From Roseimicrobium gellanilyticum (lineage in GTDB: Bacteria; Verrucomicrobiota; Verrucomicrobiia; Verrucomicrobiales; Verrucomicrobiaceae): 64,000 bases of DNA. The DNA lies in contig NZ_QNRR01000002.1 of the NCBI RefSeq assembly GCF_003315205.1, positions 404,881 through 468,880 of the forward strand, written 5' to 3'. Below are positions 19,797 through 35,612 of the stretch, piece after piece (position 1 is the stretch's first letter; every line of letters starts with the position of its first letter). A program made the translations under genes and the position numbers. The notes under the pieces were generated by a model. It saw nothing but the letters and a program-made list of their open reading frames with translations, had not been told where the DNA came from and did not search any database.

Positions 19797-19928
19797 GCGA
19801 ATACCCTCAGTTTTAGCGGAAAACGAGCGAGTTGCAAATTGGGGAAGTGATCAGAATTCGTGTCAGGCCTCCCGCCAGTAGTGGCCACGTGATTGAAAAA
19901 ATCACGCTTCCAACTCCGTCGATCTGCC

Positions 19929-22868
19929 ATGGCATGTCGGCTTGCTCAGGGTCTGGCTTTTTTACTTGTGTTTCTTGTCGTGGCACCACCAGCCGGTGCC
20001 CAGCTTGCTAATCTTCCACCTGCACCGTCGTGGCTGGAAGGTGGAAAGAGCTACGAGGTGAAGTTCGAGCATCAGGGCAAGCTCTTGATGAGCGTGCTCT
20101 TTGTGGCGGCGGACAGGGAGGTGGAAGTACAGGTGAACGGCACGAACGTAGGTATTGCCAGCGATGCGGCAAAGGCGGCAAGCCTCAATGTCACGAATCA
20201 CATCCGGCAGGGCTCCAACGCGGTTTCGATTCGTGCCAAAGATGGCGGGCCAGTGAAGGTGGCAGCATTGTTGGAACTCAATGGTGACCTCTCAGTGAGG
20301 CGCTGGATCTTCACGGACGCCTCGTGGTCTGCTCCCGGAGGCAATGGTAAGGTGGTGATCGGGAGCTTGACGAACGCTGATCCAGCCACGGATCCTTTCA
20401 ACTTCAAACAGACCTTCGATGCGTACAACAGCTGGCAGCTCGCGAAGCGGGACCAGCAGAGTCAGGCCACCGATCCTTCGGGCTTCAGGTTGCCCCCGGG
20501 GTTCAAGGTGGAACTCATCCGCTCGGCTCTGCCAGAAGAAGGTTCGTGGGTGGCCATGACCTTTGACCCGAAGGGGCGGGCCATTCTTGCCATGGAGAAG
20601 AAGGGCCTGCTCCGCGTGGACCCGGATGGAAAGACTCAAGTCATTGAGGATACTCTTCTGGAGTGCCGTGGTCTGGTGCATGCTCACGGCTACCTCTATG
20701 CGCACGCGAACAACACCAAGGCTCTCTGTCGCCTGCGCGACAACGATGGTGATGGCGTGCTGGAGGAGAAGCAGGAACTCATGCGCACCGAGGGAGGGGT
20801 GGGACATGGTCGCAATCACATCAAGCTAGGCCCCGATGGGAACATCTGGGTGGTGAATGGGAACAATGTGCTGCTGCCCAGCCCGCTCGCGGCTTCATCT
20901 CCCCTGCGCAATTACGCTTCCGATCAGCCGCTGCCGAATCCTTGGGATCCGGTGATGTTTGATGGTACGGTGGAACTCCCCGCCGGTCACGTGCTCTGTG
21001 TGAGTCCGGACGGGAGCACGGTGGAACTCATCGCTGGCGGGTTGCGCAACGCACTCGACATCGCCTTCAATCGCGAGGGTGAGCTATTCACGTTTGATGC
21101 GGATATGGAGCGTGACGTGGGTGCCTCATGGTACATGCCAACCCGGGTGTTGCACGTGGTGTCCGGAGCTGACTTTGGCTGGAGGCGTGGTACAGGGAGG
21201 TTCCCTGCGTGGTATGCGGACACGCTTCCGAGCGTTGTGGACATCGGACTGTCATCGCCCACCGCCATCTTCTTTGGTTATGGCGGCAAGATGCCGGCAA
21301 AATACCAGGACGCGCTTTTCATCTGCGACTGGTCGTATGGTCGCATCATCGCGGTGCATCTCAGGCCCGACGGCGCAACTTACAAGGGAGAACAGGAGAC
21401 TTTTATCACGGGACGCCCGCTCAATGTGACGGATGGCTGCATCGGTCCCGATGGGGCGATGTGGTTTACCACGGGAGGAAGGGGAACGCAGAGCGGCCTG
21501 TATCGCATCACCTACAGAGGTGATGCCGAGATTCCGGCAATGACGAAGAGCGCTGCACCACTCCGCGACCTGCGTCATCGTTTGGAAGCGTTCCATGGTG
21601 GCATTCCCGACGGGCAAGTGGAGGATGCGCTGGCATTGGCGTCCGGCAATCTCGGGCATCAGGACCGCTTCATTCGACACGCTGCACGTCTTGCCCTGGA
21701 GCAGATCCCCCTGGACCTGTGGAAGGAGAAGATACTCAATGAAAAGCAGGCTGGGTCCTGGAAGCACCTCACCGGGCTACTGGCTCTGGCAAGGGTGGGG
21801 GAGCCTGGTATGATGTCTCATGGGATGGTGTCCTTGGAACGGGTGTCATGGAAATCGCTCGACGAGGAGCGGAAACTGGCCGCGCTGCGTGTCATGGGCG
21901 TGATGCTCGCGCGCTGGGGAGATCCAGAAGAGTCCTGCCGCGGAAGACTCCTGGGGCTGCTGGAGTTCCAGTACCCGGCCAAGTCATTTCCAGTGAACCA
22001 GGAGCTTTGCCGGCTGCTGATTCGATTGAAGTCTACCACGGTGTTGGAGAAGAGTGTGAAGCTGCTGGGCGCTGCGAAGACATCGGAAGAGATTCTTTTC
22101 TACCCCCTGCATCTTCGGTATCTCAAGGATGGCTGGAGCATGGCTTCACGACGTGCGGTATTTGAAGCGTTGAATCGCGCGGAAAAGTTCAATGGCGCCA
22201 GTGCTTACTTCAAGGCCATTCAAGACATCCGGAGCGAGCTCGCCGCAGCGACACCTCCCGCGGAAGCTTTGGAGCTTGCGGCTTTGATCCATCTGCCCAA
22301 GCCCGTTGCCCTTGCCCCGCACGCCATGCCTGGTCACACATTCAAGGCGTGGAAGGTCGAAGACCTGGAACCGCGTCTGGCACAGGTGGGGCAGGGGAGA
22401 TCCTTTGAGAGGGGAAAGGCGGCCGCCATCAGCGCACAGTGCGTGTTCTGTCATAAAATGAGCAACGACACGGCCCTGCCCGCAGGTGTGTTCGGCCCGG
22501 AACTCGTGCAGGTATCCGCGCGCTTCAGCCGCCGGGACCTTTTGGATCACATTCTGAATCCTTCAAAGGTCATCGATGAGAAGTTCCTCTTCGTCACCAT
22601 CACGCGAAATGATGGTACTCAGATCACCGGTAGTCTTGAGAGTGAGGATGATGAGCGTGTGACCTTGAAGCCCAATCCGCTGTCGCCCGAGACCGTAGAA
22701 GTGGGCAAGACGCTGGTCAAAAAACGCGAGGTGTCCACCGTTTCCCCCATGCCAGTGGGGCTCGTGAACGGCTTGCGTGTAGAGCAATTGCTGGATCTCC
22801 TTGCGTTCATCGAAGCGGGAGGTGACCCCACACACGCCAACTTCAAAAAGCTTCCTCCTGCGCCATGA
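19929..22868 (+). CDS. PVC-type protein: propeller, HEAT-like and CxxCH heme domains
   Basis: About 979 residues from the ATG giving MACRLAQGLAFLLVFLVVA, a signal peptide ending in PPAGAQ. Regions in order: a beta-sandwich (about 20-170); a membrane-bound-dehydrogenase-type propeller with RLPPGFKVELIRSALPEEGS, GGVGHGRNHIKLGPDGNIW and FICDWSYGRIIAVHL; a helical HEAT-like region (about 560-800); and a C-terminal heme c domain with CVFCH of the Pirellula/Verrucomicrobium type. These proteins are thought to oxidise carbohydrates in the periplasm with electrons passing to the heme. A TTG at 19893 would add 12 residues, but it lies inside a 7-bp hairpin (19888-19906). It is coupled to the next gene by an ATGA overlap. 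Confidence 0.85.
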   Translation: MACRLAQGLAFLLVFLVVAPPAGAQLANLPPAPSWLEGGKSYEVKFEHQGKLLMSVLFVAADREVEVQVNGTNVGIASDAAKAASLNVTNHIRQGSNAVSIRAKDGGPVKVAALLELNGDLSVRRWIFTDASWSAPGGNGKVVIGSLTNADPATDPFNFKQTFDAYNSWQLAKRDQQSQATDPSGFRLPPGFKVELIRSALPEEGSWVAMTFDPKGRAILAMEKKGLLRVDPDGKTQVIEDTLLECRGLVHAHGYLYAHANNTKALCRLRDNDGDGVLEEKQELMRTEGGVGHGRNHIKLGPDGNIWVVNGNNVLLPSPLAASSPLRNYASDQPLPNPWDPVMFDGTVELPAGHVLCVSPDGSTVELIAGGLRNALDIAFNREGELFTFDADMERDVGASWYMPTRVLHVVSGADFGWRRGTGRFPAWYADTLPSVVDIGLSSPTAIFFGYGGKMPAKYQDALFICDWSYGRIIAVHLRPDGATYKGEQETFITGRPLNVTDGCIGPDGAMWFTTGGRGTQSGLYRITYRGDAEIPAMTKSAAPLRDLRHRLEAFHGGIPDGQVEDALALASGNLGHQDRFIRHAARLALEQIPLDLWKEKILNEKQAGSWKHLTGLLALARVGEPGMMSHGMVSLERVSWKSLDEERKLAALRVMGVMLARWGDPEESCRGRLLGLLEFQYPAKSFPVNQELCRLLIRLKSTTVLEKSVKLLGAAKTSEEILFYPLHLRYLKDGWSMASRRAVFEALNRAEKFNGASAYFKAIQDIRSELAAATPPAEALELAALIHLPKPVALAPHAMPGHTFKAWKVEDLEPRLAQVGQGRSFERGKAAAISAQCVFCHKMSNDTALPAGVFGPELVQVSARFSRRDLLDHILNPSKVIDEKFLFVTITRNDGTQITGSLESEDDERVTLKPNPLSPETVEVGKTLVKKREVSTVSPMPVGLVNGLRVEQLLDLLAFIEAGGDPTHANFKKLPPAP

Positions 22869-24009: not shown

Positions 24010-26310
24010 TTATGTGGGCGATACCACGGTCTTGCCTGATGGGTCCCACTCCACGCCCAGCGCAAGGTTCTGTTCCTGCGGATTGGCCACCAGCCACTCC
24101 GCCACAGGAGTGGTGACGAGTTCTTCGATGCGGCGCTGCAAGGGGCGAGCTCCGTACACCGGGTCGAAGCCGCGCTCACTGACCACACGAATCATGGTAT
24201 CACTGATGCGCAGCGAGATGCTGCGGTCACGCAACCCCTCGCGTTCTTCGAGGCTGGCGAGTTCGCGCCGGGCGATCTGTTCCACGGCCTCCTTGTTGAG
24301 CGGATCAAAGGTTACCACCTGATCCAAGCGGTTGAAGAATTCGGGACGGAAGAACTGGGTGACGGCTGCACTGTCCACTCGTGCGCCCTCTGTGAGGGCA
24401 TCCGGTGTGAAGCCGGGCGCGCCACCTTTGCGTGTGCCCAGATTGGACGTCATGATGATGACGGTGCTGCGGAACCATGTGGTGCGTCCCAGGGCATCTG
24501 TGAGCCTCCCTTCCTCGAAGACATTCATCAGCGTGTCGAAGACCTCCGGGGATGCTTTCTCCACCTCGTCGAAGAGAAGCACGCCGAACGGATTCTGCCG
24601 CATGCGCTTCACCAGGTCGGAAGGCTCGCCGAAGGGATCTCCCAGCAGGCGGCGCGCGGCGTCGTAGCCGCTGTACTCGCTCATGTCGAGTCTCACGAGA
24701 CGGTCGGTGGCCTTGCGATTGGGAAAGAGGTAGTCGCCGAGCAGCTTCGCGAGCTGTGTCTTGCCGGTCCCGGTGGGGCCGGTGAAAAGGAGCACGGCGA
24801 GCGGGCGATCCGGATCGTTCAGACCTGCCTTGAATTTCAAGACCGCCCGGCACACGGCATCTACCGCATGCGGTTGCGAGACAAGGCGCTCGCTGAACCA
24901 GCCCTGCAGCGCGGTAGGATTGAGCAGGCGGCTTTCGTCGAGCAGTTCCTCGGGTAAGCCCGTGGCTGCGGCGAAGCCACGCCGCACGTCGGTGAGGTGG
25001 ACTACTCCTGCGCCGTGCTCCTGCGCCTTCGCCGCGGCATCGTTCATGTAGGTGAGCGGTGTGGCGGGAAACCCCGCATAGGGAAGGAAACGACGGCAAA
25101 GACGTCCTGCCTCACTCGCCGCTTCCTGGACGAACTCCAGGCGATGCTTCGCGCTGAGAGTCACGGCAGCGTGTTGCAGGATCGATTTCTCACTCTCTGC
25201 CGACAGCGCATCCAGTCTGACCATGCTGAAGGCATCGAGGAAGGATGGTAGAGTACGCTCACAGGCTTCTACCTCCTCTGGTGTGGCCTCCACCACCACG
25301 CGTAGCTCCTGGAATCGGAGATAAGGCACGAGAAAAGCGGCCAGACTGCTCTCAGGCGTGGTGCCGCCCAGGCGCATGAGTTCCTGCAGGCTCTCAATAC
25401 ACAGAACTCCATTCACATCCCGGATCTCGCGGATGACGTCCTCCAGTCTTTCCTGCCACTGGCCCAGCCAGCGCATACCGGCGATGATACGCGCGCCACT
25501 GGTAATCCAGAACCGATGCTCCTTCGCGCTGTCCTCCTCTTCTGTGGCCGTGAAGCGCGAGAGACGGCGGATGGCCTCCAGTAGTACTGCGCTCTTGCCA
25601 CAACCGGACTTGCCCACGAGCAGGATGTTCCCGGTCTTCTGTGCCAGGCGGTTGGCAAGGTCATTGATGGGCAGTTCCCGCTCCAGGGGCCATGTACGCA
25701 CAGTTCGCCGCAGCGCGACTGCATCAACCGGATCGGCGATCTGGACGAGGGAATCCGCTTCCATGCGAAATGCCCTCTCTTTTCGACGTCGGGGGCTGAA
25801 TGAGATGGCATCCAACACACAAGGGCCGGGCGGGAGGAAGCGTAGCAGTTGAGCTGGTGTGAGCCCTTTCAGAGCTTGTCTCGCGTAGTGCAGCGCCATC
25901 TCATCGACACGTTCGCCACTGCTCACATCGAATTCGACATCGAGTCCCGGAATGAGCGCGCAAATCAGACCGCTTTCGCGTTTGCCCACCACGTAGGGAA
26001 GTCTCAGCGTCACCGGTTCGGCGCAGGGCACAACGCGCCTTCTGCCCGTGGGTCCGGGAGGGGTGGTGTATTCCGGCACGGCCTGAATTTTCACCGTGCG
26101 CAGGGTGGGCTCCAGAAAGTCCGGCTCCGGCAACGCGTCATTCTCGCTGCCGTCTACGCCACGCAGATAGTCCTTCAGCTCATGCAGCACGGCTCCACGC
26201 GAGGGGCCGCTTGCAGTTCCCGAGCTGGAGAGTTCATCCAGAAGGCGGCCGCTCCACAGGTCTTCGCGAGCCTGCCAGAGGACGAGGGGGTATCGATAGG
26301 TGCGCGGCAT
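24010..26310 (-). CDS. ClpB-like double-AAA+ ATPase A (766 aa)
   Basis: Third gene of the AAA+ operon. Residues about 1-215 are an unrecognised N-terminal domain, not Clp-N. Ring 1 (D1) has Walker A GKSGCGKS (233-240), but Walker B reads VLCIES (302-307) instead of hhhhDE, and no Arg finger is seen. Ring 2 (D2) is canonical ClpB: Walker A GPTGTGKT (511-518), Walker B LLFDE (Asp581, Glu582), sensor 1 TSN, Arg finger Arg661 in PEFFNRLD, and sensor 2 GAR (720-722). There is no middle-domain coiled coil. Probably an unfoldase or remodeller powered by D2. The ATG at 26310 follows the stop of the upstream gene by one base; an in-frame start at 26361 is less likely. Confidence 0.85.
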   Translation of the reverse strand: MPRTYRYPLVLWQAREDLWSGRLLDELSSSGTASGPSRGAVLHELKDYLRGVDGSENDALPEPDFLEPTLRTVKIQAVPEYTTPPGPTGRRRVVPCAEPVTLRLPYVVGKRESGLICALIPGLDVEFDVSSGERVDEMALHYARQALKGLTPAQLLRFLPPGPCVLDAISFSPRRRKERAFRMEADSLVQIADPVDAVALRRTVRTWPLERELPINDLANRLAQKTGNILLVGKSGCGKSAVLLEAIRRLSRFTATEEEDSAKEHRFWITSGARIIAGMRWLGQWQERLEDVIREIRDVNGVLCIESLQELMRLGGTTPESSLAAFLVPYLRFQELRVVVEATPEEVEACERTLPSFLDAFSMVRLDALSAESEKSILQHAAVTLSAKHRLEFVQEAASEAGRLCRRFLPYAGFPATPLTYMNDAAAKAQEHGAGVVHLTDVRRGFAAATGLPEELLDESRLLNPTALQGWFSERLVSQPHAVDAVCRAVLKFKAGLNDPDRPLAVLLFTGPTGTGKTQLAKLLGDYLFPNRKATDRLVRLDMSEYSGYDAARRLLGDPFGEPSDLVKRMRQNPFGVLLFDEVEKASPEVFDTLMNVFEEGRLTDALGRTTWFRSTVIIMTSNLGTRKGGAPGFTPDALTEGARVDSAAVTQFFRPEFFNRLDQVVTFDPLNKEAVEQIARRELASLEEREGLRDRSISLRISDTMIRVVSERGFDPVYGARPLQRRIEELVTTPVAEWLVANPQEQNLALGVEWDPSGKTVVSPT

Positions 26311-26311
26311 G

Positions 26312-29300
26312 TCAGACGGGATGATGATTGGGTGTATCAGGAATGGATGCCGGCTGGCCATAGCAGACTGCCATGGCCATGTCCCCTGTTTCCTGATTGG
26401 CGCCGGAGATCAGCAGTCCGGTACGCAGATCCAGCAGCCAGGCTCTGAAGTACAACCAGGTGATCTGATTTTCAGAGGACTCCGGAGGTGTCTCGCCGGT
26501 GCGCCAGGCCTTCACGGTGGTCAATTCGGATTGGGCCGTCCAACACGAGGCCTTCACACCGGTGGTCGCAGCCACCAGACCTTCCAGACCGGGGCCATCC
26601 ACAATGCGAATGGCTTTTTTGTTGGAAACGAGAACCACTTCGGCCAAGGCTGCTCCGCACCATTCGAGCGACGCGACCTGGTTCTGCGGCCAGGCTTCGT
26701 CATCTTCTGTGACTTCCTCAATGTAAGCAAAGTTGTCGATGCCGATGGTCCAGGAACTCGTGTGCGCCATGGACTCGTGACAGACGGAGATCAGGTGGCG
26801 AGCCCTCCAGAGCAAGCGCAGCAGGCCAGCGTGGATCGCGTCCAAGGGCACTGCCTGATCCAATATCTCGGTGATGGCATGGTCAGCGAAGCGTTGCGAG
26901 ATTAAGCGCTGGAGGAGATGCTCCACCACTTCGCGAGGCAGCACATGCAGCTTGTCCTTGGCGCGGACTGGCTCACCGGACTTTGCGCGTGACGTGGCAG
27001 CACGCTGGCGGGCGCGGTTCTCGCGTTCAAGTGTGTCCTCCAGCCGCTCGAGACCTTTTCGTATCACGGAGCATTCGTCACGGAGGCGGAAGTACCAGGC
27101 GCGTCGTCGTGAGATGGTCCCGTCCTCTTCTTGATCAAACTTCCAACCATCGAGGCGTTCCTCGGCTTCGGTAATCAAGTCCAAGGATTCATCGAGAAGA
27201 TCCAGCATCTCATCAACGGTGATGGCGGCGGAAATGGTGAAGAGAAGGGGAGTCTGCTCCTGCGCCCTCAGGTCGAATGATAACGCTCCATCGATACCCA
27301 TGGTCACCCTGGCCTTCAGCGCCTCCCCTGAGCCCACGGAAGCCATACGCGCAGCCAGCGGCTCGACCAGGAGTGTCTCCACGGCGCGACGTAGTGACCG
27401 GGCACCGTACGCTGTTTGGTGGCCCTTTTCTGCCAGGAACTGGATGGCATCGTCTTCCAGGGACACATCCACCTGCCGATCGGACAGGCCCTGCCGAGTC
27501 ATGGCTCGCTGCGCCATGACTTGCGCCAGCTTCTCGATATCTTCCCGGCGAAGTTCGTGGAAGGGTACAATGCGATCCAGACGGTTGAAAAACTCAGGGC
27601 GGAAGAATTTCTCCGCAGCCTGTCGGTAGGCCTCGGCATCTTCCGTGGTGGCATGGCCAAAGCCGAGGCGTTGCCTGGACTGGCGGGCCCCGATGTTTGA
27701 GGTGAGGATGATGATGCAGTTGCAGAAGTCTGTGGTCTGTCCCTGTGCATCCGTGAGACGCCCTTCACCCAGCACTTGGAGCAGCAGATCGAAAACGTCG
27801 GGATGAGCCTTTTCCACCTCGTCGAAGAGCAGCAGTGTGAAGGGCTGGCGGCGTACGCGGGAGGTGAGCAGACCGCCGCGCCCCGGGCCGCCAATGAGGC
27901 GGATGGCCGCGTCATCACCGGTGTATTCGTTCAGGTCGAATCGAACCATGCGATCCTCACTCTGGAAGACTGTCTTCGCCAGCATCTTGGCGCATTCTGT
28001 CTTGCCCACACCGGTGGGGCCCAGGAAGAGCAGCGAACCCAGCGGGCGAAGAGGATCCTGCACTTCGGCTGACGCCATGAGGATGATGTCCATCATGGCC
28101 TCGACGGCGGCTGTCTGGCCCATGATGTTTCCAGAGAATCGCCAGCGGAGATCCTCCCGGCCGAAGGATTCGCCATCAAGCGATTCGCCCTTGAGCAACT
28201 CGAGACTGATCCCATGCCGGTCGGCGAACCACTCCAGAACTTGAGAGGCCGTGGTGGCTTTGTCCTGTTGGAAGCTGTTCGTTGCGGACTTGTACGTATT
28301 CGCCAGTGCCTGGAGCATCTCCACCGCTTTTCCCGGGAATGCCTTTGCCCGGCCAAATCGCTGCTGGAGGCGGATGACTTCTGGGAGCACCTCCGGCGAG
28401 AAATTGCACTCAGGTGGCAGCTCCTGCATGGTGCGTACCAGGATGCGCAGGGTGGCGTCATCGCCCATCTCCCGGACATGAATGACCTGGAACTGGCTCG
28501 CGAACGATCGATCGATTTCCCGCAATCTCCCCCAAGCCTCCGGAGTGGCCTCAGCCAGCACCGGAATGGGTTCGTGTTCCTGTCGGGCCTTGAGCACATG
28601 GCCGAGTGTGAGGTCGCTTCCTGAGGAACGCCCGGCTTCGAAGAGGCCGAGCAGATCATCGAGCACCAGGATATGCCGGTCCTTGCGAATACTGCTGAGC
28701 ATCGCCGTCCAGCGTTCTTCCCACTGGCCGAGGTAGGACATGCCACTGATCACCCGCTGTGGAGACACCAGCCAGTACTGGCCGCGGCGGCCCGTGCTGG
28801 CGGCTTCCAGTGATTTGCGCACGCATTCATGAATGATGGCAGTCTTCCCGGCTTTTGGCCGGCCTACCAGCACGACCATGGGTGTCCGCACACTGATGCG
28901 GCGGAAGCTCGCCCAAAGCTGTGCCACCTCCGCTTCCCGGAGCAGTGCACGCTGCAGATCCTGGGGATAAAGCCGATCAAGGCACCGGCCCACCTTGTGC
29001 AGTTCACGCTCCCCATCCATGGGCGTGTCATCAATGTATGACGCGTGCCTGGATCCCGGAATCGGAAGGCGCTGGTTTCCCGTGAGCGCCACGGGAAGGT
29101 GAACGACGTGCGGCTGGCCCCCGGAGAACCAATCACTCGGATCAAAAGCGTCCTCCGCCTCCTTCTCCAATTGCCGGAAGTGAGCAGTCAGGATCCGTGT
29201 GGCCACATCGCGCAGTTGGGTGCCGCTGGGCCACTCGAAGCTGAGGCCTCCTCTAGACAAATGCACGAGTCTTCGCCCGGCGTTTTCAAACACCACGGCA

Positions 29301-29599
29301 AAGAACGCACCGTCGACCGAGCGCTTCTTGAGCTCGATACGAAGTTTCAGCAGGTGACTCGTAGTCGGAGGACAGAAGCTCCATGGGAGCAGGTCACGAT
29401 GGTCGGGCGACACGGTCGTCTCCAGCAACAGGCGACCAAGGCGTCCGCCAAGTTGTGCCAGGGCGCGGTCCTCCCGCAGGTCCATTTCATCCTTGAACGC
29501 GCCAGCGGCAGCAAAGACGGGCCGGGCACGAAAACGCGTGATGCCGTGAGCATCGCGATAGTGGTCCACGCATACGGGAATGGTGAGGGTGAACTTCAT
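26312..29599 (-). CDS. ClpB-like double-AAA+ ATPase B with C-terminal extension (1095 aa)
   Basis: Middle gene of the AAA+ operon. The N domain (about 1-225) is unlike Clp-N. D1 has Walker A GRPKAGKT (246-253), Walker B LVLDD (311-315, second acid Asp rather than Glu), and the ClpB-like GQWEERW loop. The D1 Arg-finger position reads SQFQVIHV, so the finger is absent. D2 is complete: GPTGVGKT (527-534), LLFDE (Asp593, Glu594), PEFFNRLD (Arg673), GARSL (sensor 2 Arg734). Residues 750-1095 form an extra region with a charged coiled coil (about 795-870) and a beta-rich end. The ATG overlaps the stop of gene C by ATGA. Confidence 0.85.
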   Translation of the reverse strand: MKFTLTIPVCVDHYRDAHGITRFRARPVFAAAGAFKDEMDLREDRALAQLGGRLGRLLLETTVSPDHRDLLPWSFCPPTTSHLLKLRIELKKRSVDGAFFAVVFENAGRRLVHLSRGGLSFEWPSGTQLRDVATRILTAHFRQLEKEAEDAFDPSDWFSGGQPHVVHLPVALTGNQRLPIPGSRHASYIDDTPMDGERELHKVGRCLDRLYPQDLQRALLREAEVAQLWASFRRISVRTPMVVLVGRPKAGKTAIIHECVRKSLEAASTGRRGQYWLVSPQRVISGMSYLGQWEERWTAMLSSIRKDRHILVLDDLLGLFEAGRSSGSDLTLGHVLKARQEHEPIPVLAEATPEAWGRLREIDRSFASQFQVIHVREMGDDATLRILVRTMQELPPECNFSPEVLPEVIRLQQRFGRAKAFPGKAVEMLQALANTYKSATNSFQQDKATTASQVLEWFADRHGISLELLKGESLDGESFGREDLRWRFSGNIMGQTAAVEAMMDIILMASAEVQDPLRPLGSLLFLGPTGVGKTECAKMLAKTVFQSEDRMVRFDLNEYTGDDAAIRLIGGPGRGGLLTSRVRRQPFTLLLFDEVEKAHPDVFDLLLQVLGEGRLTDAQGQTTDFCNCIIILTSNIGARQSRQRLGFGHATTEDAEAYRQAAEKFFRPEFFNRLDRIVPFHELRREDIEKLAQVMAQRAMTRQGLSDRQVDVSLEDDAIQFLAEKGHQTAYGARSLRRAVETLLVEPLAARMASVGSGEALKARVTMGIDGALSFDLRAQEQTPLLFTISAAITVDEMLDLLDESLDLITEAEERLDGWKFDQEEDGTISRRRAWYFRLRDECSVIRKGLERLEDTLERENRARQRAATSRAKSGEPVRAKDKLHVLPREVVEHLLQRLISQRFADHAITEILDQAVPLDAIHAGLLRLLWRARHLISVCHESMAHTSSWTIGIDNFAYIEEVTEDDEAWPQNQVASLEWCGAALAEVVLVSNKKAIRIVDGPGLEGLVAATTGVKASCWTAQSELTTVKAWRTGETPPESSENQITWLYFRAWLLDLRTGLLISGANQETGDMAMAVCYGQPASIPDTPNHHPV

Positions 29600-32500
29600 G
29601 CCAGGGCCTCCCCGAGTGTGATGGCGCGCAAGGACTGCAGCAGCCAGTCCTCCTGAAACCGGCCATCCTTGCGCGCGTTTTCCGAGCCCTCACGGACGAT
29701 CTGCTTCACGGGATCATACTGGCGGCAGATGGTGCCAGACTCCAGATCGGGCAGACCCACCAATTCCTGCAGTGGCACCGTAAGCTGGCCGAGGTGCTGC
29801 ATGTTCTCCCCCGGCACCCGCACTTCGAGGCGGCAAGCCCAGTCGACCGGGTTCTGCCTGTTCTTGGTCTGGGTGTCAGCCTTCTTTGCAGCGGCTTCCT
29901 CCTCCTTGGACTTGCGCCGTGATTTGGAGAGGTGAAGACCATCCTCATGCTTCAGATGCATGTTGGCGTGGGCCCCTTCAATCCAGAGGGCGATGGCGCT
30001 TACGGATTCCACATCCTTGGTCCACAGCGTCGCCTGTTCTTTCACGGAGGGAGGTGAGTCCGCGAGGACATGGAGTCCATCCTCGGTCAGCAATCGCGCC
30101 GGCGTCTTTTTGTAGAAGAGACCGACACGCACAGATGCCTTGAGTGAGGCAGCGACATCATGATACACCCGTGCGAAGTCGAAGAGTTCGGAGCCGGGCT
30201 GTCCCCGCATAAAGAAGATCAATCGCTTCGGCGGAGGCTGCCAGAGCGCATAAGCTTCCAGCACCAGGTCCTCCCAGCCGGTCATGGTCAGAGGTTCGCG
30301 GGCGCGGAGGATCTCCAGTTGGTCCTGATGCAGAGCGACAATGAGCGCTTCTTCTCTCGCAAATTGTGTGTTGGCTTCGTTCTGCATCTGCGTGAGACAG
30401 GTCTTCAGTCGGTCCAGTTCCGGGTCATGACCCATCCACGTATTCTTGCTGCGCCTGCTGGCGCGGTCCTTCATGCGTTGCGCCCGCAGCTTCTGTTCCA
30501 AGAGCCGCACCTTGCCCCGAAGGCCGTTGGTCATGGTTGAGATCAGCAGACGTTGGTATGCCCGACGGAGGCGGGCTGCATCAAAGGTACGCGACTGGAG
30601 ATCCGAGCGCGAAAAGTGCGCGGCCTCTGACGTGACTTCGCGTGTACTCCAGTCCGGGCGGATGACTTCGATGGCAGGTCGCCCGTCCGGCCCGAGTTCG
30701 GCCTGTATCGAGTAGGGGCCATGGGTGTGCATCACTTTGTCGGAAAGAGGAGCGAGCAATTCCTCCGCAATACGACGTTTCAGCGGTCGCGCACCATAGC
30801 GGGGATCGTAGCCCTTCGCGGCCAGATGCCGCAGCAAAGGTTCGCTCACCTCCAGACGCAGCTTGCGGCTGGCAAAACCGGAGCGGAGAGACACGGCATC
30901 AACCTCACGACGCGTCAGCGAAAGCACCACTTCCTCCGAGAGCGGTCGGTAGGGCACGATGCGGTCAATGCGGTTGAACATTTCAGGGCGCAGCGCCTTC
31001 TGCACTGCGGAGGTGAAGTGCTCCACGGCATCCTGGAGTCCGCTGCCACTGACGTCGAAGCCCAATCGCCCACGTGAGTATTCCTGCGCACCGAGGTTGG
31101 AGGTCATGATGACCACACAATTGCTGAAGTCCGCCGTGCGTCCGGCTGCGTCGGTGAGTCTTGCTTCGCCAAGTACTTGGAGCAACAGATCAAACACGGC
31201 CGCATCGGCCTTCTCAAACTCATCCAGCAGCAGCACGTTGAATGGCTGCTCACGCACGGCGGCGGTAAGGATGCCCTCCTTGCCGCCGTGGCTGCCATTC
31301 ACCAGGCGTTGCGCGCTCCAGGGCTGGCCGTATTCGCTCATGTCCAGACGGATCATGCGCTCAGGACTCTGGAAGAGAAACTCGGCGAGGGCCTTCGCCA
31401 TCTCTGTCTTGCCCGTGCCGGTGGGTCCGGTGAAAAGCAGTGATGCCAGCGGTCTGCCGGGGCGGGTGAGTCCCGCCTTCAACTGCGCAATCACACTGGT
31501 GATGACTTCCACGGCGGCGTCCTGCCCCTGCACCCGGCGCTGAAACCAGGCGCGTGTAGCCGCGAGGTCGAGTGGCTGTTGTGGATCCAGCAGATGGCGT
31601 GGCATGCCTGTTTCACTGGAGAAGGCGGCGAACACCTCTGCCTCTTCAATGAGCGTGTTCTTCTCCGCACCTTCGTGAAGGCGCTGCATGAAGCGAAGCG
31701 GTGCTCCGGGGAAGGCGGCGTAACCCATGAAGCGATGATGCAGGGCAGCGATGCGTTGCAAGGCCTCGCGCGTGAAGCGTCCACGATCACGCCCCATTTT
31801 GATGGAGGTGGAGAGCAGGATCGCCTGTTCCGCTTCGCGTGAGGGCTCCTCTACTTTCATGATGCGGAAAGCCTCACTGAGACGTGGGTCATTTTTCTCA
31901 ATCACGGCCATCTGCTCAGGTGTGCACTCCACGATCACCTGGATGTCCCGGCGTATGAGATAGGGGCGCAGGAAACTCGCAATGCTTTCCGAGCCTGCCG
32001 AACTCTGGCCCACGTTCATCAGCTCAAAGAGGTTTCCCAGGAAGAAGATCACCGGTCTTTGTTTCGCAGACTCCACCAGATCCCGGCACCGCTTTTGCCA
32101 CATGCCAAAGCCGCATGCTCCCGCGATCAAACGCGAACCGCTGCTGCGGTAGAAGGCTTTCTCACCAAGCTTATGGTCACCCCTGCGCAGCACCAGCTCC
32201 TGCACGAGGGCCGTCTTGCCCACGCCGCCGGGGCCCACCAGCAGAATGCTGGGTTTGTCCGGGAGCGAGAGCAGACGCGCAAGGTGCGCGAGCGTGGTCT
32301 GCACCTCATACGCCTGCGCCAGGAAGGGCTCCTCCATGCGCGTGCAAAGCTGCTCTACCACATCTGTGGCCTTTTCGGTGGCGTTCAGGCGCTTCCAGCG
32401 ATCACGTGCGGATTCGAGCGACGGCGTCCAGGGAATGGATTGCAACTTGAAATCGCCGCGCTGCAGCAGGGCCATCTGCAGGTGGGAGGTATTCCATCCG

Positions 32501-32934
32501 TCACGCTTGATGGCGGAGAGCGCATGCTCCTTGAGCATGTCGGGGAGGGCATTCCGACTTGGCGCGATCACAGAGATCGACAGAGCGGGAAGCACCGCGA
32601 TCATCTGGCCGCTCTGCTCCCACACCAGCGCATCGAGCCGGATGTCCATCGCCTCCTTCCATGCTTCCGTGCGTTTGCCTGGTATCACCGAGAGTTCCAC
32701 GGTGGTCATCTCGGGCTCGCCGAGCACCACCCGTCTGCTGATCTCATCAAGGGGCAGTGCTTTGAGCAATTCTTCACCGACATCAAGCAAAGCGAAACGC
32801 GCGCGCCGCTCGCGATGCGCCAGCGTGGACAGCCCTGGAAATAGCAGGAATTCGATGAACAGCTGCGACGCGCCCTCCGCACTGTCTTCCAGGGTGCGGG
32901 TGACAAGATGCAGTGTGGCAGAGACTTCAGGCAT
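29596..32934 (-). CDS. ClpB-like double-AAA+ ATPase C with release-factor-like tail (1112 aa)
   Basis: First AAA+ gene of the operon. The N domain (about 1-190) is unrecognised. D1 has Walker A GPGGVGKT (234-241), but Walker B is lost (IFFLG at 296-300), as is the Arg finger. D2 is intact: GPTGTGKT (503-510), LLLDE (Asp571, Glu572), PEMFNRID (Arg655), GARPL (sensor 2 Arg716). After D2 a coiled coil (about 805-875) precedes a domain in which IEGAHANMHLKHEDGLHLS (985-1003) resembles the G-x-x-A-x-x-x-L-K-x-E-x-G-V-H-R block of peptide-chain release factors. No GGQ motif follows. The release-factor link is an eye-level match. Confidence 0.83.
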   Translation of the reverse strand: MPEVSATLHLVTRTLEDSAEGASQLFIEFLLFPGLSTLAHRERRARFALLDVGEELLKALPLDEISRRVVLGEPEMTTVELSVIPGKRTEAWKEAMDIRLDALVWEQSGQMIAVLPALSISVIAPSRNALPDMLKEHALSAIKRDGWNTSHLQMALLQRGDFKLQSIPWTPSLESARDRWKRLNATEKATDVVEQLCTRMEEPFLAQAYEVQTTLAHLARLLSLPDKPSILLVGPGGVGKTALVQELVLRRGDHKLGEKAFYRSSGSRLIAGACGFGMWQKRCRDLVESAKQRPVIFFLGNLFELMNVGQSSAGSESIASFLRPYLIRRDIQVIVECTPEQMAVIEKNDPRLSEAFRIMKVEEPSREAEQAILLSTSIKMGRDRGRFTREALQRIAALHHRFMGYAAFPGAPLRFMQRLHEGAEKNTLIEEAEVFAAFSSETGMPRHLLDPQQPLDLAATRAWFQRRVQGQDAAVEVITSVIAQLKAGLTRPGRPLASLLFTGPTGTGKTEMAKALAEFLFQSPERMIRLDMSEYGQPWSAQRLVNGSHGGKEGILTAAVREQPFNVLLLDEFEKADAAVFDLLLQVLGEARLTDAAGRTADFSNCVVIMTSNLGAQEYSRGRLGFDVSGSGLQDAVEHFTSAVQKALRPEMFNRIDRIVPYRPLSEEVVLSLTRREVDAVSLRSGFASRKLRLEVSEPLLRHLAAKGYDPRYGARPLKRRIAEELLAPLSDKVMHTHGPYSIQAELGPDGRPAIEVIRPDWSTREVTSEAAHFSRSDLQSRTFDAARLRRAYQRLLISTMTNGLRGKVRLLEQKLRAQRMKDRASRRSKNTWMGHDPELDRLKTCLTQMQNEANTQFAREEALIVALHQDQLEILRAREPLTMTGWEDLVLEAYALWQPPPKRLIFFMRGQPGSELFDFARVYHDVAASLKASVRVGLFYKKTPARLLTEDGLHVLADSPPSVKEQATLWTKDVESVSAIALWIEGAHANMHLKHEDGLHLSKSRRKSKEEEAAAKKADTQTKNRQNPVDWACRLEVRVPGENMQHLGQLTVPLQELVGLPDLESGTICRQYDPVKQIVREGSENARKDGRFQEDWLLQSLRAITLGEALA

Positions 32935-34406: not shown

Positions 34407-35612
34407 TCATCGATCCTTCGTGGGCGAATTGGCTGACTTTATTTTGAAGTGATATTCGCCGGGAGCCGCCAACCCCACACCGTCGCTTTCATAGTCTTCT
34501 CCATTTACAAGCGAATCGCCCGACTCTGTTTTGCGGACATCGAAGAACCGCACCCAAGGACCTTCGGCCTGGATTTGCCACCGCCCCGAGGCGTCTGTCG
34601 TGGCACTGCTAATATTGTGGGAATCACTCCAAGTCTTCGGCGTGGAGTTGTGAGAGACCCCTGCAGTCACCACAAGCCCAGCCTGAGGTTTACCAGACGC
34701 GTCGGTGACGGTGCCGAAGTAGCGATACTTTGGGGCTTCAGGGGCGACCTCAATCCTCAAGTGCATACTCGTATCGGAGGAGAGCTCCGGGAGGGTGATG
34801 GAGCCGCCCACCCAGCGTGTGGAGGTCTGGCCTGAAGCATGCAATGCCACCTGCGTGCGGCTCCAGTAGCCTTCGCCCTCCATGGAGAGTGAACAGGCTG
34901 CGGGGTACACGTTCTGCAGCTTGAATCTTCCTTCGGCATCGGACACGGCAGTTACCATGAACACTTCTCCACCGGCGCCTGTATGGCTTCCGATGTGCAA
35001 GTCATGGGTGGCCGAGATGGTGTGGCCCTGCAATGGCTTGCCATCAGGGGTGACGACGACTCCGGTGACTGTGCGCCCCTTCACTAGGTGCATGGTGACC
35101 TCCTCTGTCTCGTCAGTGAAGAGCTGTTCGTCGTTCGCATGCGCATCCCATTCATTCTCCTCTTCTTCGTGGGCCCCCTTGCGCGTCACGCCGTGAAAAA
35201 TGGGAGGGCTCACGGCACGGCGGCCATCTGGTATATCCACCACAAAGTAAAATCTCCCATCACGAGGCACCGTGTAGCCCCACGGTTTTTCAGAGACTGA
35301 AAAGCGGGCGAGTATCTTGCCTTGGGCATTTGTGGTGAATCTCCACCAGGGCCCGTGGTCTTTCGAGACAGAGTCGTCCAATGCTGGCCAGCGACCGCCC
35401 CGCCGCATGCCGTACAGGTCCACAGGCACACTGGCGACAGGCTGGTCATTCTCGTCCAGCAGTGTCACGTGGAATTCGCGCACTCGTCCGGATTCATAGT
35501 TGACGATGGGGGTGGGGGGCTTGGGGAATTCCGGTTCCAAGTCGGCAGCCATGGAAGGAAACGCTCCGGTAAAGCCTGCAAAAAAGAGGAGGATAAACGG
35601 GCAAGTTCTCAT
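34407..35612 (-). CDS. secreted protein with carboxypeptidase-regulatory-like repeats
   Basis: A protein of 401 residues with an N-terminal signal peptide (MRTCPFILLFFAGFTGAFP). Two or three Ig-like modules of the carboxypeptidase regulatory-like class follow: VTLLDENDQPVASVPVDLYG, VTGVVVTPDGKPLQGHTISA with SDAEGRFKLQNVYP, and GTVTDASGKPQAGLVVTAG with TTDASGRWQIQA. Such modules are structural or binding domains and give no enzyme activity by themselves. The same modules appear in the M56 protein at 52597. Probably periplasmic. It is separated by about 110 bp from the MFS gene. Confidence 0.8.
   Translation of the reverse strand: MRTCPFILLFFAGFTGAFPSMAADLEPEFPKPPTPIVNYESGRVREFHVTLLDENDQPVASVPVDLYGMRRGGRWPALDDSVSKDHGPWWRFTTNAQGKILARFSVSEKPWGYTVPRDGRFYFVVDIPDGRRAVSPPIFHGVTRKGAHEEEENEWDAHANDEQLFTDETEEVTMHLVKGRTVTGVVVTPDGKPLQGHTISATHDLHIGSHTGAGGEVFMVTAVSDAEGRFKLQNVYPAACSLSMEGEGYWSRTQVALHASGQTSTRWVGGSITLPELSSDTSMHLRIEVAPEAPKYRYFGTVTDASGKPQAGLVVTAGVSHNSTPKTWSDSHNISSATTDASGRWQIQAEGPWVRFFDVRKTESGDSLVNGEDYESDGVGLAAPGEYHFKIKSANSPTKDR

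Follow-up and report, generated by a model that had tools for sequence, protein, structure and literature searches.

The window analysed here is a stretch of 64,000 nucleotides from Roseimicrobium gellanilyticum (Verrucomicrobiota; contig NZ_QNRR01000002.1), and it carries on its minus strand an operon of three tandem open reading frames, which we call A, B and C (1112, 1095 and 766 aa, respectively; Table 1). The A/B junction is an ATGA overlap, and C starts 1 bp past the TGA stop codon of B, such that the close spacing described in an earlier sequence-only reading of this DNA is confirmed by the ORF coordinates. A mechanical ORF list gives C as 783 aa, beginning at an in-frame ATG within B. 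We take the protein to be 766 aa because its orthologues begin at that position. The genes flanking the trio are metabolic or regulatory, the flanks vary between genomes, and no conserved fourth gene was found at the trio locus. Protein kinases recur close to A in several planctomycete loci; they are abundant in Planctomycetota generally and do not recur near A elsewhere, and were thus rejected as part of the system.

Table 1. Genes, domains and motifs of the operon (positions within the window).
Feature	Position	Strand	Description
gene A	29596..32934	-	1112 aa; predicted HicB-like N domain, degenerate D1 AAA+, intact D2 AAA+, release-factor-like C domain
A N domain	32305..32934	-	homologous to N domains of B and C
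A D1 Walker B site FFLGNL	32029..32046	-	acidic pair gone
A D2 Walker B LLLDEFEK	31210..31233	-	intact
A release-factor-like domain	29599..30636	-	coiled coil and domain 2/4 superdomain; domain 3 absent
A IEGAHANMHLKHEDGLH	29932..29982	-	counterpart of release-factor 'G..AY..L..E.GVHR' block
A RQYDPVKQIVREG	29686..29724	-	counterpart of release-factor domain 4 'RSYV....VKD'
gene B	26312..29599	-	1095 aa; layout as A, release-factor-like C domain more divergent
B N domain	28940..29599	-	profile comparison with A and C
B D1 Walker B site LVLDDL	28652..28669	-	Glu to Asp
B D2 Walker B LLFDEVEK	27809..27832	-	intact
B release-factor-like domain	26315..27292	-	RF2 first in profile search of PDB, E 5e-8
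B LDLRTGLL	26411..26434	-	counterpart of RF2 domain 4 'KD.RTG'
gene C	24010..26310	-	766 aa; N domain, D1, D2; without release-factor domain
C N domain	25651..26310	-	AlphaFold model resembles HicB antitoxin
C D1 Walker B site LCIESL	25387..25404	-	catalytic Glu gone
C D2 Walker B LLFDEVEK	24556..24579	-	intact

All three products are Clp/Hsp100-type double-AAA+ ATPases, each with two AAA+ modules (PF07724, 1e-33 to 1e-43, plus D2-small). Their AAA+ cores are 36-38% identical in pairwise comparison, which bears out the proposal that they are paralogous. The same reading had denied them both hallmarks of the ClpB disaggregase, and rightly so: Pfam shows no Clp-N domain in any of the three, and the distance from one Walker A motif to the next (269-281 aa) is too short to accommodate the middle-domain coiled coil; in the ClpB encoded by this genome it is 400. 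The best NCBIfam scores lie far under the curated cut-offs for ClpB (319 against 1232 bits), ClpA (311 against 993) and ClpV (239 against 885), so equivalog status is denied in each case. Coupled with the lack of secretion or protease genes among the scanned neighbours, these scores led us to reject a type VI ClpV or ClpA/P identity, in agreement with the initial suspicion that such loci do not fit. Furthermore, A, B and C form a clade separate from ClpB, ClpA and ClpC.

The D1 ATPase sites of A, B and C are degenerate. Each has lost the Walker B glutamate (Table 1), and the D1 Arg fingers are missing in all three, so none has the residues of an active D1 ATPase. D2 of each protein keeps Walker A, Walker B, sensor 1 and sensor 2. 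The aromatic GYVG pore loop of D2 is deleted in every sequence displayed of A, B, C and a sister family, D, that is described below, and this loss argues against ordinary threading of substrate. The aromatic residue of the D1 loop is retained in nearly all B and C sequences. Thus, the proteins resemble ClpB, ClpA and ClpC of the HCLR clade in the order of D1 and D2, in the PF07724 and D2-small modules and in the intact D2 Walker motifs and sensors, but differ from them in the missing Clp-N and middle domains, the loss of the D1 glutamate and Arg fingers, the deleted D2 loop, the release-factor tail on A and B, and the existence of three obligate paralogues.

The N domains had been described as completely different, a claim contradicted by profile comparisons between A and C (E 6e-10 over 206 columns), A and B (2e-6) and B and C (8e-5). 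Judged by these comparisons, one homologous N domain is common to the three proteins. Single-sequence Pfam searches of the N domains returned nothing relevant. An AlphaFold model of the C N domain matches a HicB antitoxin (Z 8.3, 80 of 85 residues, 2.7 Å), and we predict a HicB-like fold for these domains. Profile matches to HicB families are not significant, so HicB membership by sequence was rejected and the likeness is limited to predicted structure. In contrast to a HicB antitoxin, the modules here stand in tandem on an ATPase, and no HicA partner was seen.

The C-terminal extensions were initially judged to be wholly different and unrecognizable. C indeed has none, but A and B end in divergent versions of one release-factor-like module, comprising domains 1, 2 and 4 of RF1/RF2 without the catalytic GGQ domain. 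When a profile of the A tail built from 20 genomes is compared with 177,635 PDB sequences, RF2 (2ihr) ranks first (E 2e-6), and the two align in collinear blocks from which the GGQ region is absent. For the B tail, RF2 is the sole significant match (E 5e-8) and the alignment likewise skips the GGQ domain, which identifies the domain 2/4 superdomain of B at the level of profiles. For A, the same superdomain is also recognized in an AlphaFold model of the window's own tail (pLDDT 78). Foldseek returned 18 matches to this model at E<1e-3, all of them release factors (RF1/RF2); it scores Z 12-14 against RF1/RF2 and superposes about 147 residues at 3.0 Å on RF1 103-346, skipping domain 3. Single-sequence Pfam searches of both tails gave nothing relevant, and the link becomes visible only through profiles, D relatives and predicted structure.

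Family D consists of single-gene homologues in Planctomycetota and Acidobacteriota, in which PF03462 passes the Pfam gathering cut-off behind two AAA+ modules. D aligns with release factors over 333 columns (E 7.5e-35). It is matched in turn by the tail of A (E 2e-11) and that of B (7e-10), whereas the N domains, run as a negative control in the same comparison, give 0.1-0.6. Domain 3 of D-type proteins is degenerate, and GGQ is missing from the corresponding site in A, in B and in all of the roughly 40 D-type proteins. A and D likewise show no stop-codon recognition motif (PxT or SPF) where it would align. Therefore, the module shares with RF1/RF2 (and PrfH) the fold of domains 1, 2 and 4, but here it is fused to an AAA+ ATPase, has lost domain 3 or keeps it in degenerate form, and has no conserved PxT/SPF. 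D-type relatives are single genes at every locus examined. No D was found at E<=1e-110 in 388 genomes of Verrucomicrobiota, although this search had no known positive and is hence weak.

The trio itself is conserved in three phyla (Verrucomicrobiota, Planctomycetota and Acidobacteriota), far beyond chance. It occurs in the same order, with differing flanks, in 9 of 68 genomes of the family. B is present in 16 of 16 genomes checked. Thirteen of these have an intact C, one has it split, and in two it is a fragment or lies at a contig end. Of 102 genomes of Gemmatales, 22 have A and 20 of those 22 also have C, which is never seen without A. In many planctomycetes the three genes are dispersed over the chromosome. 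The sequence-only reading had held that scattered or single genes would speak against it; scattering does occur, but the partners of a dispersed gene are found at other loci of that genome. The three genes are thus one obligate set, co-occurring even when unlinked. The distance matrices of A, B and C are closely correlated (r 0.88-0.98). Mirrored trees are partly due to shared inheritance. The proteins have a common origin, which the sequences trace to one triplication, either before the phyla diverged or before the set spread.

Given this co-occurrence and the coupling of the genes, we consider it probable that A, B and C form a hetero-ring. The earlier idea of a fixed complex thus gains strong, if indirect, support from the retention of the set when unlinked and from the mirrored trees, while the complex itself is something we infer. 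Clp/Hsp100 rings are normally homo-hexamers, and three separate homo-hexameric chaperones that are merely co-inherited would be in keeping with this custom, with the intact D2 site in every subunit and with the single-gene state of the D-type relatives. We regard such an arrangement as quite unlikely, given the strict co-occurrence that includes unlinked cases, the translational coupling in the window, the mirrored trees and the loss of D1 Arg fingers from all three proteins.

Our best explanation, to which we give slightly less than an even chance as a whole, is a hetero-oligomeric AAA+ remodeller that dead release-factor domains bring to ribosomes. In such a machine, A, B and C would be three non-redundant paralogous subunits of one Clp/Hsp100-type assembly, with ATP hydrolysis carried out by D2 in each subunit. 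D1 would bind nucleotide but be hydrolytically dead, and might serve in assembly or regulation, as in Pex1/Pex6. The release-factor modules of A and B would most likely dock at or close to the ribosomal A site, where they would neither decode a stop codon nor release a peptide. The ATPase ring would then remodel or clear a ribosome-bound substrate, which could be a nascent chain, a stalled complex or a trapped factor, and the HicB-like N domains would probably take up substrate or adaptors. Considered separately, docking of the A and B modules on the ribosome seems to us marginally favoured, and a part in the quality control of ribosomes or of translation is a tentative proposal.

Several features complicate this explanation. 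Most release-factor surface residues, as well as PxT/SPF, are not conserved in the module, which may therefore have lost ribosome binding. The module also sits on the face formed by D2, from which substrate normally leaves a Clp ring, and simple extraction from the ribosome thus fits poorly. C, which has no release-factor module, also counts against the best explanation. One alternative is a hetero-oligomeric disaggregase or remodeller acting off the ribosome, in which the release-factor fold is reused as a structural arm or adaptor-binding module. The loss of both the stop-codon-recognition and GGQ elements, the retention of core residues only, and the high divergence of these domains (mostly 10-21% identity between homologues and the window's own) are all consistent with such reuse. 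However, A, B and nearly all D-type proteins keep the domain 2/4 superdomain with its E.G.H core over deep divergence, and this retention suggests selection on the shape itself. We judge the off-ribosome alternative unlikely.

A defence or conflict role, in which the trio would attack translation or shield it when phages infect the cell, might be suspected from the patchy distribution of the trio in its family and from the predicted HicB-like fold, and a precedent exists in PrfH-RtcB, a repair/conflict operon with a release-factor paralogue (PMC6514570, PMC9223846). Nevertheless, PADLOC models match the generic AAA core only, the flanking genes are metabolic or regulatory, and a scan of IMG/VR viral contigs gave no match. 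Furthermore, no plasmid record covers 80% of A and no phage record covers 80% of B, and the chromosomal dispersal of the genes in many planctomycetes is unlike that of defence cassettes. Membership of a known anti-phage system was rejected on the PADLOC, viral contig and plasmid/phage results, and we consider a defence role very unlikely.

Release factors and Clp unfoldases are both textbook families, but no published fusion of an AAA+ protein with a release factor was found in the open-access journal literature searched, and within that literature the initial impression that no such layout had been described still stands. Pex1/Pex6 is a heteromeric type II AAA+ with a degenerate D1, and by analogy the trio may likewise combine paralogous double-AAA+ subunits with an inactive D1 and an active D2. 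Pex1/Pex6 differs in belonging to the classic AAA clade, in being eukaryotic and peroxisomal and in having no release-factor domain, and its heteromer is established whereas that of A/B/C is proposed. We know of no other naturally heteromeric Clp-type ring, and the A/B/C set would be the first. Inactive or specialized folds of the release-factor type do serve as ribosome A-site ligands (PMC6514570). ArfB, PrfH-RtcB and the catalytically inactive Dom34/Pelota resemble the A and B tails in this respect, but none of them is part of a Clp ATPase.

The GGQ-less release-factor tails of A and B suggest that the trio may be a previously undescribed machine acting on ribosomes. If its tails do dock there, bacteria of three phyla would possess an unstudied ATP-driven machine directed at translation, possibly the bacterial equivalent in function of what p97/Cdc48 does for ribosome quality control in eukaryotes. 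The fullest version of this proposal is a first heteromeric Hsp100 ring that remodels ribosomes and is kept on stalled or idle ones by dead release-factor domains, with single-gene relatives in Planctomycetota and Acidobacteriota forming a wider family. Such a ring would open a new route for ribosome rescue or nascent-chain extraction. This version is speculative, and we hold it to be a possibility that falls well short of probable. The D-type relatives allow a ready comparison of the one-gene form with the three-gene form.

The genes A, B and C (the trio) encode paralogous double-AAA+ ATPases that constitute an obligate set of three, and two of them (A and B) carry release-factor modules that lack GGQ, the catalytic motif of release factor (RF) domain 3. 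The sequence-only reading had described three tandem AAA+ genes joined by an ATGA overlap and a 1-bp gap, and this is indeed the arrangement in the window, where A is followed by B across the overlap and B by C across the gap. The genome (8 Mb, 60% GC) belongs by its named close relatives, Verrucomicrobium and Prosthecobacter, and by a PVC-type heme-binding protein with Verrucomicrobiaceae. It has canonical Clp genes elsewhere (L001 and L002) that group among the family's ClpB-type and ClpC-type members. A, B and C score far under the curated score of every named Clp family. An MFS transporter gene immediately precedes A, and a carboxypeptidase-regulatory-like domain protein (34407-35612, minus strand) is encoded upstream of the transporter. 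The PVC-type heme-binding protein, a CxxCH protein (TIGR02603/TIGR02604), is encoded at 19893-22868 (plus strand), and a GFO/IDH/MocA oxidoreductase comes after it.

Coordinates of the trio in the window and of loci of the sister family D
Feature	Position	Strand	Type
A (1112 aa)	29596-32934	minus	double-AAA+, Clp/Hsp100 type
B (1095 aa)	26312-29599	minus	double-AAA+, Clp/Hsp100 type
C (766 aa)	24010-26310	minus	double-AAA+, Clp/Hsp100 type
D-family loci	L200:6051-9551, L201:4941-8483, L202:2175-5726, L204-L231, L238-L249

When the AAA+ core is placed in a maximum-likelihood tree, each of the three genes forms a single clade (98-100% SH-aLRT support), and the three clades join in one that is separate from ClpB/ClpC. 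This clade structure, the identical deepest split repeated within all three clades, and the correlation of their pairwise distances (r 0.88-0.98) together indicate that one triplication predated the spread of the set.

The trio is present in 9 of 68 family genomes, always in the order A-B-C, with identities ranging from 100% down to about 38-40% and with neighbours that vary by lineage. A scan of 85,000 species yielded 30 loci in Verrucomicrobiota, Planctomycetota and Acidobacteriota. All three genes adjoin at many of these, and at others, mainly in planctomycetes, A, B or C is located elsewhere. When 16 genomes with a member apart were searched, B was present in every one, and C was intact in 13 and split in two in another (G462). 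Of the remaining two genomes, one has a fragment of C (L073, G455) and in the other the contig stops inside B (L078, G457). Among 102 Gemmatales genomes, A occurs in 22, of which 20 have a full or contig-edge C (on a contig separate from A in about a dozen), and such a C was found in no genome lacking A. Full-length A is present in 6 of 396 Acidobacteriota genomes. Given these co-occurrence counts, A, B and C may scatter yet remain one set. Scattering in relatives, which had been named beforehand as evidence against a fixed set, thus does occur in planctomycetes, but loss of set membership does not accompany it.

Other arrangements were also encountered. An acidobacterium (G1318) has a long B-like gene (L241:2-3709, minus strand) and a short C-like gene (L242:1616-4234, minus strand) side by side; the pair looks like a two-gene relative of the trio. 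In one Gemmataceae genome (G450:C14:35066-39229), the gene immediately ahead of C, about 870 bp away, is a further Clp-type AAA+ gene (872-aa frame). One protein family recurs near A at planctomycete loci (L066:13338-15194, L068:4315-6171, L069:18936-20588, L077:7372-8658, L085:308-3640 and L089:402-2111), sitting between A and B in L066 and L068. All three members tested (L068, L077 and L089) are Ser/Thr protein kinases. The recurrence near A may simply mirror how common kinases are in planctomycetes.

The C-terminal extensions of A and B are related to release factors. An A-tail profile built from 20 genomes and searched against all PDB sequences matched bacterial RF2 best (E 2e-6), and RF1 as well, through collinear blocks equivalent to domain 1/2, the ‘E.G.H’ block and domain 4. 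The last two are separated by about 36 positions in A versus about 110 in RF2, where this stretch holds the GGQ domain. A separate search with the B tail found RF2 as the only significant family (E 5e-8), with the GGQ domain again skipped. For the structure predicted (pLDDT 78) for the A tail encoded in the window, the 41 top fold-match rows are release factors (Z 12.3-14.3), as are all 18 Foldseek matches below 1e-3. Elsewhere in the window's genome, a very weak PCRF match (E 0.11, 14 bits) in a 940-aa frame (L057; G000:C3:66317-66574) is probably due to chance.

The sister family D, first found in four Gemmatales genomes without A and C, is encoded by a single gene whose product joins HEAT repeats to two AAA+ modules and the full release-factor layout. 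All three D proteins tested score above the gathering threshold of Pfam PCRF, and sequences such as AKGR occupy the GGQ position in the alignment. Roughly 27 to 30 of 392 Planctomycetota genomes carry D-type genes, and D-like genes are also present in Acidobacteriota; no D-type protein examined from these phyla has GGQ at the right place. A release-factor profile matches 26 of 28 Planctomycetota proteins examined, down to E 5e-29. The others are L208, cut by a contig end or frame, and L230, a B orthologue (B profile score 1224 bits) placed within B in a larger tree. The D loci represent a broader group of Clp-type ATPases, each encoded by one gene and ending in a GGQ-less release-factor C-terminus. 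Profile comparisons (single-comparison E-values) close the chain from tail to D to RF: D versus RF gives 7.5e-35, the A and B tails give 2e-11 and 7e-10 versus D and 1.5e-8 and 6e-5 versus RF, and N domains used as negative controls give 0.1-0.6.

The N domains of A, B and C, previously thought to differ completely, prove homologous by profile comparison. In the AlphaFold model of the C N domain, a helix follows each of two beta-rich units, and HicB antitoxins and HicB-like proteins are the model's only matches clear of background (Z 8.3, 80 residues). This is a resemblance of fold only, because sequence and profile searches lend no support and Foldseek returned no significant E-value for the model. 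The same units (25651-26310, minus strand) resemble RF domain 3 too weakly (Z 4-5, about 55 residues) to interpret. The ClpB middle domain, which the sequence-only reading had not recognised, is absent, judged by spacing. In D1, the first AAA+ module, Walker A is retained, the Walker B Glu is lost from the trio and from D alike, and the Arg fingers are lost from the trio. The second, D2, retains Walker A, Walker B, sensor 1 and sensor 2, and its GYVG pore loop is deleted in all sequences displayed. Judged by sequence, one ATPase layer is dead and one is live.

The trio is related to Clp/Hsp100 in its core but does not match ClpB, ClpA or ClpV, and the A/B tail is related to release factors but departs from them on both GGQ and stop-codon features. 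The parts of the system are known, but no description of the AAA+/release-factor fusion or of the obligate set of three was found in the open-access literature. The portions consulted of a review of release-factor evolution (PMC6514570) and of a survey of NTP-dependent conflict systems (PMC7159879) make no mention of such proteins.

Our hypothesis for the function of the trio begins with assembly. Three non-redundant paralogues that remain a set while their genes disperse usually signal a shared complex, and on this basis A, B and C would form a single hetero-oligomer. Because the ribosome-facing superdomain is kept and the catalytic domain is removed or degenerate, the A/B tails probably dock on the ribosome without peptide release, and ATP hydrolysis by D2 would then remodel something there. 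Pex1/Pex6, with several paralogues and a dead D1, and inactive RF-fold rescue factors such as Dom34 are comparisons in mode of action, and both are analogies rather than memberships. The position of the tails, on what is normally the exit side of Clp rings, fits awkwardly with simple threading, as does the missing D2 pore loop; full extraction and a mechanism that rearranges, levers or grips through the D1 loops are for these reasons equally likely.
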